From a virus: a DNA stretch of 34,404 nucleotides. The notes under the pieces were generated by a model. It was given only the letters and a program-made list of their open reading frames with translations. It was not told the DNA's origin and made no database searches. The translations under genes and the position numbers were made by a program. Positions 4,390-33,015 of this stretch are shown piece by piece. Position 1 is the stretch's first letter. Every line of letters starts with the position of its first letter. The stretch is taken from the IMG/VR virus record IMGVR_UViG_3300030406_003992, positions 1 through 34,404 of that record. One strand, written 5' to 3'.

Positions 4390-5784
4390 ATGTATAGTTC
4401 TTTTTTCACAAATAAAATAGATAATTTTGAAATACAGGTCACAGAAGTACAGCAGCAGAATCAAGCATGGCGAAATATGCAAAGCCATTGGGGTCTTATT
4501 GAAGATTTAGTTGAAGGTACAAGTAAAATAAGAGGTAAAGCAAGAATTTATTTAAAACAAGAACCGCGTGAAGAAGATGAAAGTTATGATGTTCGTTTAA
4601 GTAGATCAGTTTGCCCTCCATATTATGTAAGAATGGAAAGAATGTTGGCTGGTATGCTTACGCGTAAACCAGTTAGATTAATAGATGTACCCGAAAGAAT
4701 CGAAGAACAATTATTTGATGTTGACCTGGAAGGAAATAATTTAACTAATTTCATATATAATATTTCTCGTTTATGTATTCGTTATGGTCATGTTGGTGTA
4801 TTAGTTGATGCACCTTCAACTGGTGGTAGACCTTATTGGATTCCATATACTCCTAGAGATATTATCGGCTGGCGAACTGAAATAAAAGATGGTTTAAGAC
4901 AATTAACTCAATTAAGGTTAACTGAAAGAATAGTGAAACCTAAAGGATCATATGGTGAAGAAACTATTGAACAGATAAGAGTTTTAGAACCTGGAACATT
5001 TCGAATTTTTCAACGTAATAAAGATGGAGATTTTAAACAAGTTGAAGAAGGAAATACAAGTTTAGACTTCATACCTTTTTCAATTGCTTATTCAAATAAA
5101 GTTGGTATTTTTGAAAGTAGGCCGCCATTAGAAGATATTGCTGAATTAAACATCAAAAGTTATCAAATTCAAAGCGATTATGATAATCAATTACATATAA
5201 GCGCAGTTCCTATGCTTGCATTTTTTGGATTTCCTGCTGCAGCCGAAGAAGTTAGTGCAGGTCCAAGTGAAGCATTATCTTTACCCGAAGGAAGTAGTGC
5301 AAGTTATATTGAACCGAATGGTAATAGTTTTACAGCACAAAAAGAAAGAATAGATAAATTAGAATATCAAATTAATGAATTAGGTTTAGCTGCAATATTA
5401 GGCCAAAAGATGTCAGCGGAAACTGCACAGTCAAAAAGAATTGATAGATCGCAAGGTGACTCAACTATGATGGTTTTAAGTCAACAAATTCAAGATTTAA
5501 TTGATAATTGTTTAAAATTTCATGCTGAATTTGAAAATCAAAGTGTAGCCGGAACTTCTTTTGTTAATAGAGATTTTGTAGATACAAGTTTAGAACCTAC
5601 ACAAATTGATGCTTTATTAAAAATTTATGCTCAAGGAATAATAACTCAAGAAGAATTATTAAAGAAATTAATTGAAGGAGAAGTATTATCTGAGGATATT
5701 GATATTGATGAAATGTTAGAAAAAACTAGTCAAGGCGGTTTAATTGAAATGGATCAAATACCAACAACTGCTACAAATGAATAA
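4390..5784 (+). CDS. portal protein (DUF4055-type)
   Basis: The 464-residue protein follows terL after 26 bases. The N-terminal WRNMQSHWGLIEDLVEGTSKIRGKARIYL, then REEDESYDVRLSRSVCPPYYVRMERMLAGML, is the recognisable start of DUF4055 portal-like proteins. Portals form the dodecameric ring at the capsid vertex through which DNA is packaged and ejected. The middle (PYWIPYTPRDIIGWR) and the late helical segment (YQIQSDYDNQLHISAVPMLAFFG) fit the portal fold, and the C-terminus is acidic. Its stop overlaps the start of the MuF gene. Neighbours on both sides strongly support the assignment. Confidence 0.9.
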   Translation: MYSSFFTNKIDNFEIQVTEVQQQNQAWRNMQSHWGLIEDLVEGTSKIRGKARIYLKQEPREEDESYDVRLSRSVCPPYYVRMERMLAGMLTRKPVRLIDVPERIEEQLFDVDLEGNNLTNFIYNISRLCIRYGHVGVLVDAPSTGGRPYWIPYTPRDIIGWRTEIKDGLRQLTQLRLTERIVKPKGSYGEETIEQIRVLEPGTFRIFQRNKDGDFKQVEEGNTSLDFIPFSIAYSNKVGIFESRPPLEDIAELNIKSYQIQSDYDNQLHISAVPMLAFFGFPAAAEEVSAGPSEALSLPEGSSASYIEPNGNSFTAQKERIDKLEYQINELGLAAILGQKMSAETAQSKRIDRSQGDSTMMVLSQQIQDLIDNCLKFHAEFENQSVAGTSFVNRDFVDTSLEPTQIDALLKIYAQGIITQEELLKKLIEGEVLSEDIDIDEMLEKTSQGGLIEMDQIPTTATNE

Positions 5785-29806: not shown

Positions 29807-30310
29807 ATGAATGATTTATATTTGCCTAACTTACCAGATACTGATTATATTCTCAATCCGCCCACAACAATTTTTTATCCGCCTGTAGCGGAAGTTCCGT
29901 ATTTAGACCCTCTACTTCTTCCAAGCTTGGAACAGGTAGATTCGGGACTTGAGGCAGATCAGGCAAAGACTTCTTCAGAAAATAAGGAACTAAACTCGGA
30001 AGGGCTAAATATAAACCCAGAGCAGATACCGTCAAACCTCCTAAAAAACCAAGAAAATATTTCAATTGAAGAACCTGTAGCTACTTTTAATCTACCATTT
30101 TTTGGTGAATTTCCTATACCTGCCCCTGAAGTAATAGCGTCGAGCGTAATAAGTGCGGGAGTTGCGTCTACTGTAACTGTCGGCGGCTCTATTCTTATGC
30201 AAGCGGTCGTAAATAAATTAAAACAAATATTCAAAAAAATATTTACTAAAGTACTAAAAAAAGAAGTTGCTAACGTAAAAGAAAAGTTAGATAATAAAAA
30301 AGGTAGCTAG
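29807..30310 (+). CDS. proline-rich protein with a glycine/alanine hydrophobic helix, 167 aa (cyanophage-type)
   Basis: N-terminus NDLYLPNLPDTDYILNPPTTIFYPPVAEVPYLDPLLLPS is proline-rich and extended. A Glu/Asn-rich linker follows, then a hydrophobic segment IPAPEVIASSVISAGVASTVTVGGSILMQAVV (about residues 105-137) long enough to cross a membrane, and a strongly basic helical end. From memory, proteins starting with LPNLPDTD and PPxTxxYPPVxEVP occur in cyanophages and marine cyanobacteria. It could be a virion or cell-entry membrane protein. Its TAG is the start of the hairpin terminator at 30303-30350. Confidence 0.75.
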   Translation: MNDLYLPNLPDTDYILNPPTTIFYPPVAEVPYLDPLLLPSLEQVDSGLEADQAKTSSENKELNSEGLNINPEQIPSNLLKNQENISIEEPVATFNLPFFGEFPIPAPEVIASSVISAGVASTVTVGGSILMQAVVNKLKQIFKKIFTKVLKKEVANVKEKLDNKKGS

Positions 30311-30350
30311 AGTACACATACACCCGTAATGTGGCGTCTAAACTAGCTAC
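30303..30350. terminator. bidirectional hairpin terminator between convergent genes
   Basis: Arms GTAGCTAG (30303-30310) and CTAGCTAC (30343-30350) are exact inverted repeats. An inner stem CACAT (30315-30319)/ATGTG (30329-30333) can form in the loop. On the plus strand TTAAATTTTT follows, and on the minus strand a TTTTTT run follows, so it can end transcription from both sides. The two flanking genes run their stops into the stem. Confidence 0.75.
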
Positions 30351-30883
30351 TTAAATTTTTCGGAGTTAGCTTTTACATAACTTCTAATATTTATTACGTC
30401 ATTGCAAATATAAGCAAATTCGGATTTAGGATTTATCATATAACCGCTTGCGTGCAATTGTGAACATTTTAAAACTCTCACTAATTGCTTATCATGGACT
30501 TGCTTGTTTAGTTCTTCTTTGGCTAACTTTAGCTTTACTTCTGCTAACTCGGAACACGTTTCATTATTAGTACCTAGAGGCACCATAAAAGACATTTGAA
30601 ACCCCCAACCTTCATTAATACTATAAGTTTCACTATTAGGATTTTCTGCATCATTGCCTGTATAAAAAGGAGTAAACGCCATAGTCGGCTGGCTGCATAT
30701 TAAATTTCCAAATTGTAATTTGCCCGTCATTCCGTTATTGACGTTCATATTTTGATTAATTATTGATGAATTTCCTATCGCATTGGGTTGCGCTTGAACG
30801 TTAGTATCGCCCTCCGCTTTTACCGGATTACTGACTAAACACGCTGAGAGAAGTGATAACGCTAGTAGTCGTGATCGTATCAT
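30347..30883 (-). CDS. exported cysteine-rich protein, 178 aa (cyanophage-type)
   Basis: N-terminus MIRSRLLALSLLSACLVSNP followed by VKAEGD is a signal peptide. LSAC could serve as a lipobox, or VKA|E as a signal peptidase I site. The mature part has NSSIINQNMNVNNG, LICSQPTMAFTPFYTGND, GWGFQMSFMVPLGTNNETCSEL and later LKCSQ and YICNDV, giving four cysteines that could form two disulfides. I recall this SIINQN...CxxPTxxxTPFYTG...FMVPL...C family from cyanophages and picocyanobacteria. It overlaps the upstream exported-protein gene by 56 bases. Function unknown. Confidence 0.8.
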   Translation of the reverse strand: MIRSRLLALSLLSACLVSNPVKAEGDTNVQAQPNAIGNSSIINQNMNVNNGMTGKLQFGNLICSQPTMAFTPFYTGNDAENPNSETYSINEGWGFQMSFMVPLGTNNETCSELAEVKLKLAKEELNKQVHDKQLVRVLKCSQLHASGYMINPKSEFAYICNDVINIRSYVKANSEKFK

Positions 30884-31193
30884 TCTGTGTAATTTGTTCT
30901 GTTAACGCTCCGGCAGCCCTCGTAGTAACTTGCAGAGACCAATCTGCCGAAGTATCAGCAACAGTAAATACAGCATCACCGCCAGCGATTCCGGCGGAAG
31001 CGGCTACGGATATATTAGAAGCTTCCCAAGAATTTAGGGCTGAACCGTATTTTTCGGTCACTATGGAACGGGTTATCGTCTGAGTAGTATTTTCGGTTCT
31101 GTTACTAGAGCCGGTAGTCCAAGTTGGAATACCGTTAGCAAAAACAGGTGACGACATTAATAAAAAAATTGGTAAAGTAATTAATTTTTTCAT
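30828..31193 (-). CDS. exported protein, 121 aa (cyanophage-type)
   Basis: The signal peptide is MKKLITLPIFLLMSSPVFAN, with a likely cut at VFA|N. The mature protein is Thr/Ser-rich and beta-like: GIPTWTTGSSNRTENTTQTI, ALNSWEASNI, GDAVFTVADTSADWSLQVTTRAAG and the end TSVITSLSVFSQ. The TWTxG...TEVTQTI...W...TRAAG...TTSxxTSLSVFSQ pattern is a family I recall from cyanophages. It starts within the stop of the membrane-protein gene (31190) and forms a three-gene minus-strand unit. It may coat the periplasm or cell surface of the infected cell; role unknown. Confidence 0.8.
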   Translation of the reverse strand: MKKLITLPIFLLMSSPVFANGIPTWTTGSSNRTENTTQTITRSIVTEKYGSALNSWEASNISVAASAGIAGGDAVFTVADTSADWSLQVTTRAAGALTEQITQNDTITTTSVITSLSVFSQ

Positions 31194-31447
31194 TTGATTC
31201 CTACGTTGTTTTTACTATTATCAATCATTTTAGGAGAATTTGCATTTTTCTTTTTGTTAACTGAGATACCATAGCTGCCTAAAACTCCACTGGTTAGGCC
31301 GGCTAAAAACGCGCCATCATTACGAATTTTATCCATATAGCCTAAAGTCATCATTGCTAAAGACCAGCATAAAATCATAAATCTAACAGCATGACCAAAA
31401 ATTTCAGCCCAATCGGTGCCTTCTTTTTCTTCTTTATCTTCTTCCAT
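31190..31447 (-). CDS. small two-helix membrane protein, holin candidate, 85 aa
   Basis: A charged N-terminus (MEEDKEEKEGTDWAEIFGHA) is followed by a hydrophobic helix at residues 19-38 (VRFMILCWSLAMMTLGYM), a short charged turn, a second hydrophobic helix at 45-63 (GAFLAGLTSGVLGSYGISV), and a basic tail. Size and topology fit a small holin, and I recall similar GHAxRFxxLCWSLxxMTxGY proteins in cyanophages. No endolysin sits beside it, so the holin role is a hypothesis. It is the first gene of the minus-strand trio. Confidence 0.75.
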   Translation of the reverse strand: MEEDKEEKEGTDWAEIFGHAVRFMILCWSLAMMTLGYMDKIRNDGAFLAGLTSGVLGSYGISVNKKKNANSPKMIDNSKNNVGIK

Positions 31448-31512
31448 AAAAAACTGTATTTATGGCAAATTTAGCAAAAATTGTTATGTTTGGAAAGTAA
31501 CACACATTTTTC
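31448..31512. promoter_or_regulatory. divergent intergenic region, probable promoters both ways
   Basis: Minus-strand genes start at 31447 and plus-strand genes at 31513, so transcription in both directions should begin in or near these 65 AT-rich bases. A possible minus-strand TTGCTA box is visible, but no convincing consensus pair can be fixed by eye. Confidence 0.4.
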
Positions 31513-31677
31513 ATGATTAAAATTTTAAAACCAATACTATTGACGTTCCTTACAACGACTACTGTAAAGCGTTTAGTAGTAGACCTCTTACGTGCAATAT
31601 GTAAACAAACCTCAAACAGTCTTGATGACCGTGCTGTTGATATTTTGGAAAAACAATTATTTCCAGTAAGACAATGA
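31513..31677 (+). CDS. small conserved protein, 54 aa (cyanophage-type)
   Basis: The product reads MIKILKPILLTFLTTTTVKR, LVVDLLRAICKQTSNSLDDR and ends AVDILEKQLFPVRQ. It has a hydrophobic start and a helical body. The MIKxxKPLLLTFLTTTxVKRLVVDLLxA...DDxAVDxI pattern is, from memory, a recurrent mini-protein in cyanophages. Its stop overlaps the next ATG (ATGA). It may be membrane-associated and lysis- or virion-related; not proven. Confidence 0.8.
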   Translation: MIKILKPILLTFLTTTTVKRLVVDLLRAICKQTSNSLDDRAVDILEKQLFPVRQ

Positions 31678-31943
31678 GAAAATTTTTAAATATTGAAATT
31701 GAAGAAGCACCTCCTGAACTTCAACTATCAGTTGAAATGAGATGCAGAGACATTATGCAAAGTGAAGATTATGACAATATCAAAAGGTATTGCACTCACT
31801 TAGTAAGACATCAAATGGATCAAGATGTTTTTCTTGCTTCAATGCTCGGAAGATTAATTGAACTTGAAGCTGCTTTAGTTAAAAAAAATTTAGCTGAAGA
31901 GAAAAAAACTAACCCTATAAAAAAGCTTTTTCGTATTGATTAA
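31674..31943 (+). CDS. conserved small helical protein, 89 aa (cyanophage-type)
   Basis: The start overlaps the previous stop (ATGA). The sequence has PPELQLSVEMRCRDIMQSED, IKRYCTHLVRHQMDQDVFLASMLGRLIELEAAL and a basic end. LQLSxEMRCRDxMQS...YCxxLxRHQMxQDVFLAxxLGRxIELE is a family I recall from cyanophages, usually adjacent to the gene above. No membrane segment. The 3' end overlaps the convergent minus-strand gene by 29 bases. Function unknown. Confidence 0.8.
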   Translation: MRKFLNIEIEEAPPELQLSVEMRCRDIMQSEDYDNIKRYCTHLVRHQMDQDVFLASMLGRLIELEAALVKKNLAEEKKTNPIKKLFRID

Positions 31944-32358: not shown

Positions 32359-33015
32359 TTACATAACTATATTAATTTTATTGCCTAATTCCTTCATAAT
32401 TACTTTTATATCATCTTTATTAAGATTCCTAAAAACTTCATATTTAAGAACTCTTTTATCTTTAAACATTTTATGAAGTTTTCTTTCCAATGATTTAAAG
32501 TCACTACGACGAGGACTAACAGCTAAAACTTTATCTGGTTGTTGTTCTTTTATTCTTATTTTTATTCTTGAAGCAGTAGCTCTACCAATTTTCCAATAGC
32601 CCTGACTTTCAACAAAATATACATGACCCCATTCTTTAGATTTTTTAGGCGCTTTATAACTTTCAGGTGGAGTCCAGGCATTTTCCCAACCTTCATCTAG
32701 TGCTTCTTCATTCCAAACTTCTTTACCTCTAACATATTTAACAAAGCCTTTTCTTATAAGCCATAACATAGCTTCAAAGTCACTAGACATTTCATATTGT
32801 TTTACTCCATTTATAAATATGTCAGTTTCTTTAAAAACAATTCCATATTTTTTATATATTGTTTCTTCGTCCATACCAAAAAATTTTTCATGTTCAGTCC
32901 TGGTATCTTTTTCATAATCTCCAACCCAAGTACGAATAGTACCATCACCAGTTGTAGTAACGGTACATTCATTATTATTATTAAAAACTAATTTTGGATA
33001 GCCGGAATTAAGCAT
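32359..33015 (-). CDS. T5orf172/GIY-YIG-type nuclease-like protein, 218 aa
   Basis: The C-terminal domain has GHVYFVES (residues 130-137), YWKIGRA (140-146), a basic strand SPRRSDFKSLERKLHKMFKDKR (167-188) and YEVFRN (192-197). This is the order VYF/YxIG, R, LExxLHxxF-xxxR, EWF of T5orf172/MUG113 domains, members of the GIY-YIG nuclease superfamily. Glu177 and Glu193 are candidate catalytic or metal-binding residues. The first 125 residues, with FDFEAMLWLIRKGFVKY-like helices, form a separate domain that I do not recognise. It lies in the recombination operon; a DNA-cutting or repair role is plausible. Confidence 0.78.
   Translation of the reverse strand: MLNSGYPKLVFNNNNECTVTTTGDGTIRTWVGDYEKDTRTEHEKFFGMDEETIYKKYGIVFKETDIFINGVKQYEMSSDFEAMLWLIRKGFVKYVRGKEVWNEEALDEGWENAWTPPESYKAPKKSKEWGHVYFVESQGYWKIGRATASRIKIRIKEQQPDKVLAVSPRRSDFKSLERKLHKMFKDKRVLKYEVFRNLNKDDIKVIMKELGNKINIVM

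Follow-up and report, generated by a model that had tools for sequence, protein, structure and literature searches.

A group of neighbouring genes in cyanomyoviruses, T4-GCs 218, 219, 234, 235 and 237, has been described as 'clustered for functional reasons' and as perhaps mobile; no function was proposed (Sullivan et al. 2010, PMC3037559). Relatives of this cluster are present in the window, by which we mean the whole of the 34,404-base virus record analyzed here: T4-GC 218 is equivalent to tm85, 235 to sp178 and 236 to sp121, while 234 is g167-like. The two loci share the homologous DUF6450 gene (218) as well as 234, 235 and 236, the same convergent g167/sp178 junction and the overlapping sp121/sp178 pair. 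They differ in several ways: GC219, GC237 and the 'plasmid stability' gene are missing from the window, where tm85 forms part of the sp operon, s54 and am70 are additional, and the carrier is a siphovirus. GC237 is present in MED4-184 and in the myoviruses and absent from the window's sp operon, where gene overlaps of 4 and 56 nt leave no room for it.

In P-SSP7-type cyanopodoviruses all five families recur, with their order unchanged (g167-tm85-sp121-sp178-s54), between the tail fibre and TerS, but with all genes co-directional and no am70. In one P-SSP7 record (GU071093, 5905-6348 and downstream) the sp178 homolog lacks an annotation and is broken across two frames; in another (AY939843) it aligns in one piece. 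P-SCSP1 and P-SCSP2 (MPP-C) match the window in architecture, including am70, which is unannotated in their records, but are T7-like podoviruses of about 37 kb. The GH19-type endolysin cassettes of P60, S-CBP42 and KBS-S-2A share the genomic slot and have small transmembrane (TM) partners, but encode a recognizable muralytic enzyme, have no Sec signal and are unrelated to the block in sequence. The Rz/Rz1 spanins and the gp17.5 holin of T7 resemble the block in their T7-like position and overlapping gene pair, but the block has no lipobox, i-spanin anchor or sequence match to them. The cluster itself is already known and uncharacterized; here we show that it is common to three morphotypes, is exchanged as a unit, alternates with endolysin cassettes and is extended by a probable overprinted gene.

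Layout and predicted products of the block

The TerL, portal, major head, tape-measure and J-type tail genes of the window have their nearest relatives in the marine cyanosiphoviruses MED4-184, MED4-117, P-HS2, S-H1 and KBS-S-2A, and by these affinities the window phage is classed as a cyanosiphovirus with a MED4-184-like backbone. A preliminary description had listed five ORFs, all of which are present, with a minus-strand unit and two diverging plus-strand genes; this layout holds, with tm85, sp121 and sp178 on the minus strand and s54 and g89 diverging from them. The overlaps of 4 nt (tm85/sp121) and 56 nt (sp121/sp178) recur in 138 and 95 of the fetched relatives, respectively, so the three genes are predicted to form a translationally compact operon. 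The left end was placed too far inward, at 30347; the unit begins at 29807 with g167 (29807-30310, plus strand), which encodes a Pro-rich protein with a C-terminal hydrophobic stretch and a basic tail. It belongs to phrog_9426 and is a relative of T4-GC 234 of the cyanomyoviruses, based on the GC234 profile (GC234 also matches phrog_9426, E 0.003). The unannotated 70-aa ORF am70 (29853-30065, minus strand, TTG start) lies antisense within g167. At the convergent g167/sp178 junction is a conserved hairpin (30300-30352; stem GGTAGCTAG/CTAGCTAC(T)) that contains both stop codons and is T-rich on the plus side; its stem is identical in relatives and its loops vary. Its stability is modest (z about -1.5), and in sequence it is terminator-like.

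Sec signals were found in both proteins for which signal peptides had been claimed. For sp178 (30347-30883, minus strand; phrog_1755/848; T4-GC 235, 'gp165') the signal peptide reads MIRSRLLALSLLSACLVSNPVKA/EG, the slash marking the predicted cleavage site, and this Ala-Glu site is invariant among podovirus, myovirus and window members. The mature part has four invariant Cys, and its structure model is poor and uninformative (pLDDT 56). For sp121 (30828-31193, minus strand; phrog_650; T4-GC 236 / DUF6322 in myoviruses) the signal peptide is MKKLITLPIFLLMSSPVFA/NG, and the model of this beta-rich protein is confident (pLDDT 89, pTM 0.47), with two paired strands of 23-24 residues that suggest the formation of oligomers. 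No significant fold match was found for sp121 beyond its own family; Foldseek gave weak resemblances to pore-stem, needle and fibre proteins, the best of them at a non-significant E of 0.018. None of the block's proteins had a significant sequence match to a solved structure.

The membrane protein tm85 (31190-31447, minus strand; T4-GC 218) passes the cut-off for Pfam DUF6450 (7e-8). Its earlier description as a two-helix protein agrees with the two hydrophobic segments of the family alignment. A class II holin-like protein would have two TM helices and charged tails, but the window copy itself falls under a strict Kyte-Doolittle TM threshold, and no holin profile matched. In eight relatives, though not in the window, a nested hairpin (CTGCC...AAGCAGTGGTCATCTGCTT...GGCAGTTTTTTT) immediately precedes the start of tm85 and shows paired changes (CTACC/GGTAG, CTGTTTG/CAAACAG); it looks like a terminator or attenuator, had no Rfam match, and yielded no structure from RNAalifold on a gapped alignment. 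The divergent intergenic region (31448-31512) contains a conserved TATGTTTGGAAAGTAACACA-type leader 5' of s54 that is also found in the siphovirus MED4-184. The 54-aa protein s54 (31513-31677, plus strand) belongs to phrog_2738/402, and g89 (31674-31943, plus strand) encodes a small protein common to the cyanosiphoviruses MED4-184, KBS-S-2A and AG-345-A17 and to many IMG/VR relatives. A GIY-YIG/MUG113/T5orf172-type nuclease gene, possibly a mobility factor, adjoins the block (32359-33015, minus strand). An Rfam search for known RNA elements and a PADLOC search for defense families were without match.

Distribution and exchange among phage morphotypes

Searches with tblastn recovered sp178 in 336 phage records (E ≤ 0.01), and the myovirus versions of sp178 and of the DUF6450 protein in 444 and 435 records, respectively; all are cyanophage, marine-virus or uncultured. 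A cellular origin was considered and rejected: the matches in genome contigs look, from their context, like phage contigs in MAGs and SAGs. One of them, a 188-kb contig with a cyanomyovirus-type sp178 locus in the isolate genome of Nonlabens xiamenensis 1Q3, is perhaps phage contamination of the assembly. Relatives of the block co-occur in order in podovirus-, myovirus- and siphovirus-type cyanophages. In the IMG/VR podovirus layout, g167-tm85-sp121-sp178-s54 all point the same way; of 80 loci, 67 are complete and 6 more lack s54 alone. In the myovirus layout, GC237-sp121-sp178 converge with GC234 (78 of 80 loci), and DUF6450 usually follows. In the siphovirus/MPP-C layout, as in MED4-184 and AG-345-A17, g167 converges with sp178-sp121-tm85, which diverges from s54(-g89). 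The families that the preliminary description likened to those of cyanophages are indeed present in hundreds of cyanophage records, in fixed order and far beyond chance. Its prediction of co-occurrence is strongly supported, and the families are not scattered.

The structural genes of the window share 62-73% DNA identity with those of MED4-184. Over about 1.85 kb (window about 29,820-31,670), however, it is the T7-like podoviruses P-SCSP1 and P-SCSP2 that align, at 72-78% DNA identity, while the similarity of the g167-s54 stretch to MED4-184 is limited to the start of s54. Homology with the podoviruses stops at 31664-31671, the end of s54, and g89 lies outside the shared DNA. By this alignment, the exchanged unit runs exactly from g167 to s54. 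Of the five genes first grouped as a block, sp178, sp121, tm85 and s54 are retained, g89 drops out, and g167 and am70 are to be added. That a siphovirus and T7-like podoviruses carry the same unit shows exchange across morphotypes, and the alignments show the block as having moved whole, in one direction or the other. We considered and rejected the idea that tm85-sp121-sp178 had been inverted locally in MPP-C and in the window phage: MED4-184 and AG-345-A17 share the convergent/divergent layout, which makes acquisition of a siphovirus-type locus the simpler explanation.

The block adjoins tail-fibre genes in podoviruses and siphoviruses, and the best fold matches, none significant, include phage tail components. 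Both observations would fit a role in the virion or its assembly. Some products would then be minor components of the virion or chaperones for tail or fibre, and what look like signal peptides would serve another purpose. We consider this very unlikely, as the cleavable Sec signals with their invariant Ala-Glu site would export the products from the cytoplasm, the compartment of virion assembly, and the myovirus block lies among replication genes, far from structural genes.

The endolysin slot and a possible role in lysis

In the podoviruses the module lies between the tail fibre and TerS/TerL, and T7 keeps its holin and Rz/Rz1 in this fibre-terminase interval. The fibre-TerS stretch of P60 and S-CBP42 encodes a GH19-type endolysin and two small TM proteins, with the module absent; S-TIP37, which bears the module, has a relative of the XhlA-like small TM neighbor in these cassettes directly between sp178 and TerS. 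The siphovirus KBS-S-2A, also without the module, has an endolysin (phrog_181, 1.4e-37) and small TM proteins between a DUF7936 gene and g89, the very place that the module takes in MED4-184. The block occupies the lysis-gene slot of these related genomes.

Among 22 genomes, 13 encode sp178/sp121 and no phrog_181 endolysin, and the other 9 encode the endolysin and neither sp protein (Fisher 2e-6, a value that is indicative only and overstated, since the genomes were picked for carrying endolysin or module and are related). No PF01510 or free PF00959 protein was found in the module carriers tested, and no Amidase_2 in the window record; the sole Phage_lysozyme domain of S-SM1 is inside a 925-aa ORF, presumably a baseplate protein. 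For S-PM2, a myovirus reported to lack the T4-GC cluster (PMC3037559), a free lysozyme was predicted; its genome has no sp178 and does encode a stand-alone 169-aa Phage_lysozyme ORF.

The T7-like position, the replacement within the slot, the lack of overlap with endolysin and the S-PM2 prediction lead us to read the block (g167, tm85, sp121, sp178 and s54, with am70 in this lineage) as a late envelope-disruption (lysis) module, with a probability of about 0.5. The preliminary description had offered superinfection exclusion, a surface coat or lysis control. Lysis control is now favored because the block is in the endolysin slot and, in the genomes examined, never has a GH19-type endolysin next to it, and the description's phrase 'exported non-lysis proteins' is weakened on the same grounds. 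As a lysis module, the block would replace the recognizable holin-endolysin cassette in most marine picocyanophages. We propose that tm85, with its two membrane segments and its place in the holin position of the T7-like order, would act at the inner membrane together with the membrane-associated, Pro-rich g167. The protein sp121, with its long paired beta strands, and the disulfide-stabilized sp178 would be produced as an overlapping translational pair and sent by Sec to the periplasm, where they may weaken the wall or outer membrane or recruit host autolysins. A cytoplasmic endolysin would then be unnecessary.

Several observations count against a role in lysis. The module proteins match no lysis family in Pfam, PHROGs or NCBIfam, none of them resembles a muralytic enzyme, no muralytic endolysin gene was found in the block with the same three databases, and the sp178 model is poor. 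Syn5 has no module and no phrog_181, PF00959 or PF01510 protein. P-SS2 also lacks the module, and its reported lysozyme (PMC2784084) was not found by these families. In the myoviruses the block resides among replication genes rather than late ones. A DUF6450 relative persists, with sp121/sp178 absent, in the endolysin-bearing cyanomyoviruses S-H34, S-CREM2 and S-B68; the set is thus not always replaced whole, although retention of this gene also fits a holin. Finally, S-TIP37 tolerates insertion of a resistance marker between g45 and g46, at a site called 'non-coding' (PMC8776855). The site (about 4466-4666) overlaps an unannotated DUF6450 homolog and an out-of-frame g167 C-terminus, and tolerance of the insertion implies that this DUF6450 copy seems dispensable.

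An unrecognized endolysin may be encoded elsewhere in the genomes of module phages. The block could then be the auxiliary partner of a cryptic lysis system, supplying spanin-like outer-membrane disruption and a holin. The sp121/sp178 overlap recalls that of Rz/Rz1, DUF6450 is retained in endolysin-bearing myoviruses, and marine cyanobacteria are Gram-negative. We found neither a conserved lipobox Cys, as in an o-spanin, nor the i-spanin combination of an N-terminal anchor and a periplasmic coiled coil: the window copy's LSAC motif is not conserved, the signal peptidase I site is, and no N-terminal anchor is kept in sp121 or sp178. The missing lipobox and anchor led us to reject sp121/sp178 as a spanin pair, and the module's loss goes together with acquisition of the endolysin itself. 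We regard an auxiliary role as quite unlikely.

Export of two or three beta-rich proteins with membrane partners would also suit superinfection exclusion or surface remodeling, with the products coating or altering the periplasm or outer membrane and blocking adsorption or injection by a second phage. The presence of the block in most cyanophages of three morphotypes, its exchange among them and the predicted long strands of sp121, with their non-significant likeness to pore-stem, needle and fibre proteins, count in favor of such a role. Exclusion genes, however, are usually variable and dispensable, but the block is near-universal with conserved order, and neither endolysin cassettes in the same slot nor its absence beside GH19 endolysins would be expected of them. 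We therefore regard exclusion as rather unlikely.

Cyanophage lysis frees a large share of ocean primary production. To our knowledge, no holin/spanin set has been described for cyanophages of the P-SSP7 type or for most T4-like ones, and literature searches found none. If the block is a lysis module, a testable function could be given to hundreds of cyanophage genes annotated as 'hypothetical protein', and there would be a genetic handle on the timing of phage-driven carbon release. A broader picture can be put forward only tentatively: most marine picocyanophages would open their hosts by an endolysin-independent, Sec-exported module that has spread among siphovirus, podovirus and myovirus types and been swapped for an endolysin cassette in others, with one lineage adding an antisense membrane protein inside a partner gene.

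An antisense reading frame within g167

The new element of the locus is the membrane gene am70, whose ORF starts with TTG or ATG and encodes an N-terminal TM helix followed by a Pro-rich tail; the product is hydrophobic in 94 of 94 distinct copies. Synonymous diversity of g167 (93 distinct sequences) is 0.107 at residues 54-86, compared to 0.31 at residues 16-53 and 0.53 at residues 97-130 (Mann-Whitney p = 7.7e-9). In the region of low diversity, third codon positions of g167 vary less than first and second positions. In its IK and IR classes, am70 is best conserved at the second position of its own codons and most variable at the third, and the second is again the lowest in variability in the KY class; these column comparisons do not model the tree. 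The frame is open in 81 of 81 sequences tested but in just 2.5% of synonymous shuffles, and shuffles that are open and also match am70 in hydrophobicity are rarer still, at 0.4% (the tree again not being modeled). The open frame and the constraint exceed what the host gene g167 imposes, which argues that am70 is probably an overprinted gene. If real, it would be a rare and well-supported example of antisense overprinting between two phage genes. No am70-like ORFs were found in the g167 relatives of P-SSP7-type phages, MED4-184 or the myoviruses. Since am70 lies beyond the terminator-like hairpin of its own strand, its expression would need read-through or its own promoter.

The 'plasmid stability' proteins of the cyanomyovirus cluster (T4-GC 414 / phrog_568) are also small, with an N-terminal TM segment and, by alignment, a Pro-rich composition. 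Homology of am70 to these proteins was rejected (phrog_568/GC414, hhalign probability 1.3%), with only the anatomy similar. From sequence, the 'plasmid stability' label, the source of the cassette-mobility idea, itself looks doubtful.
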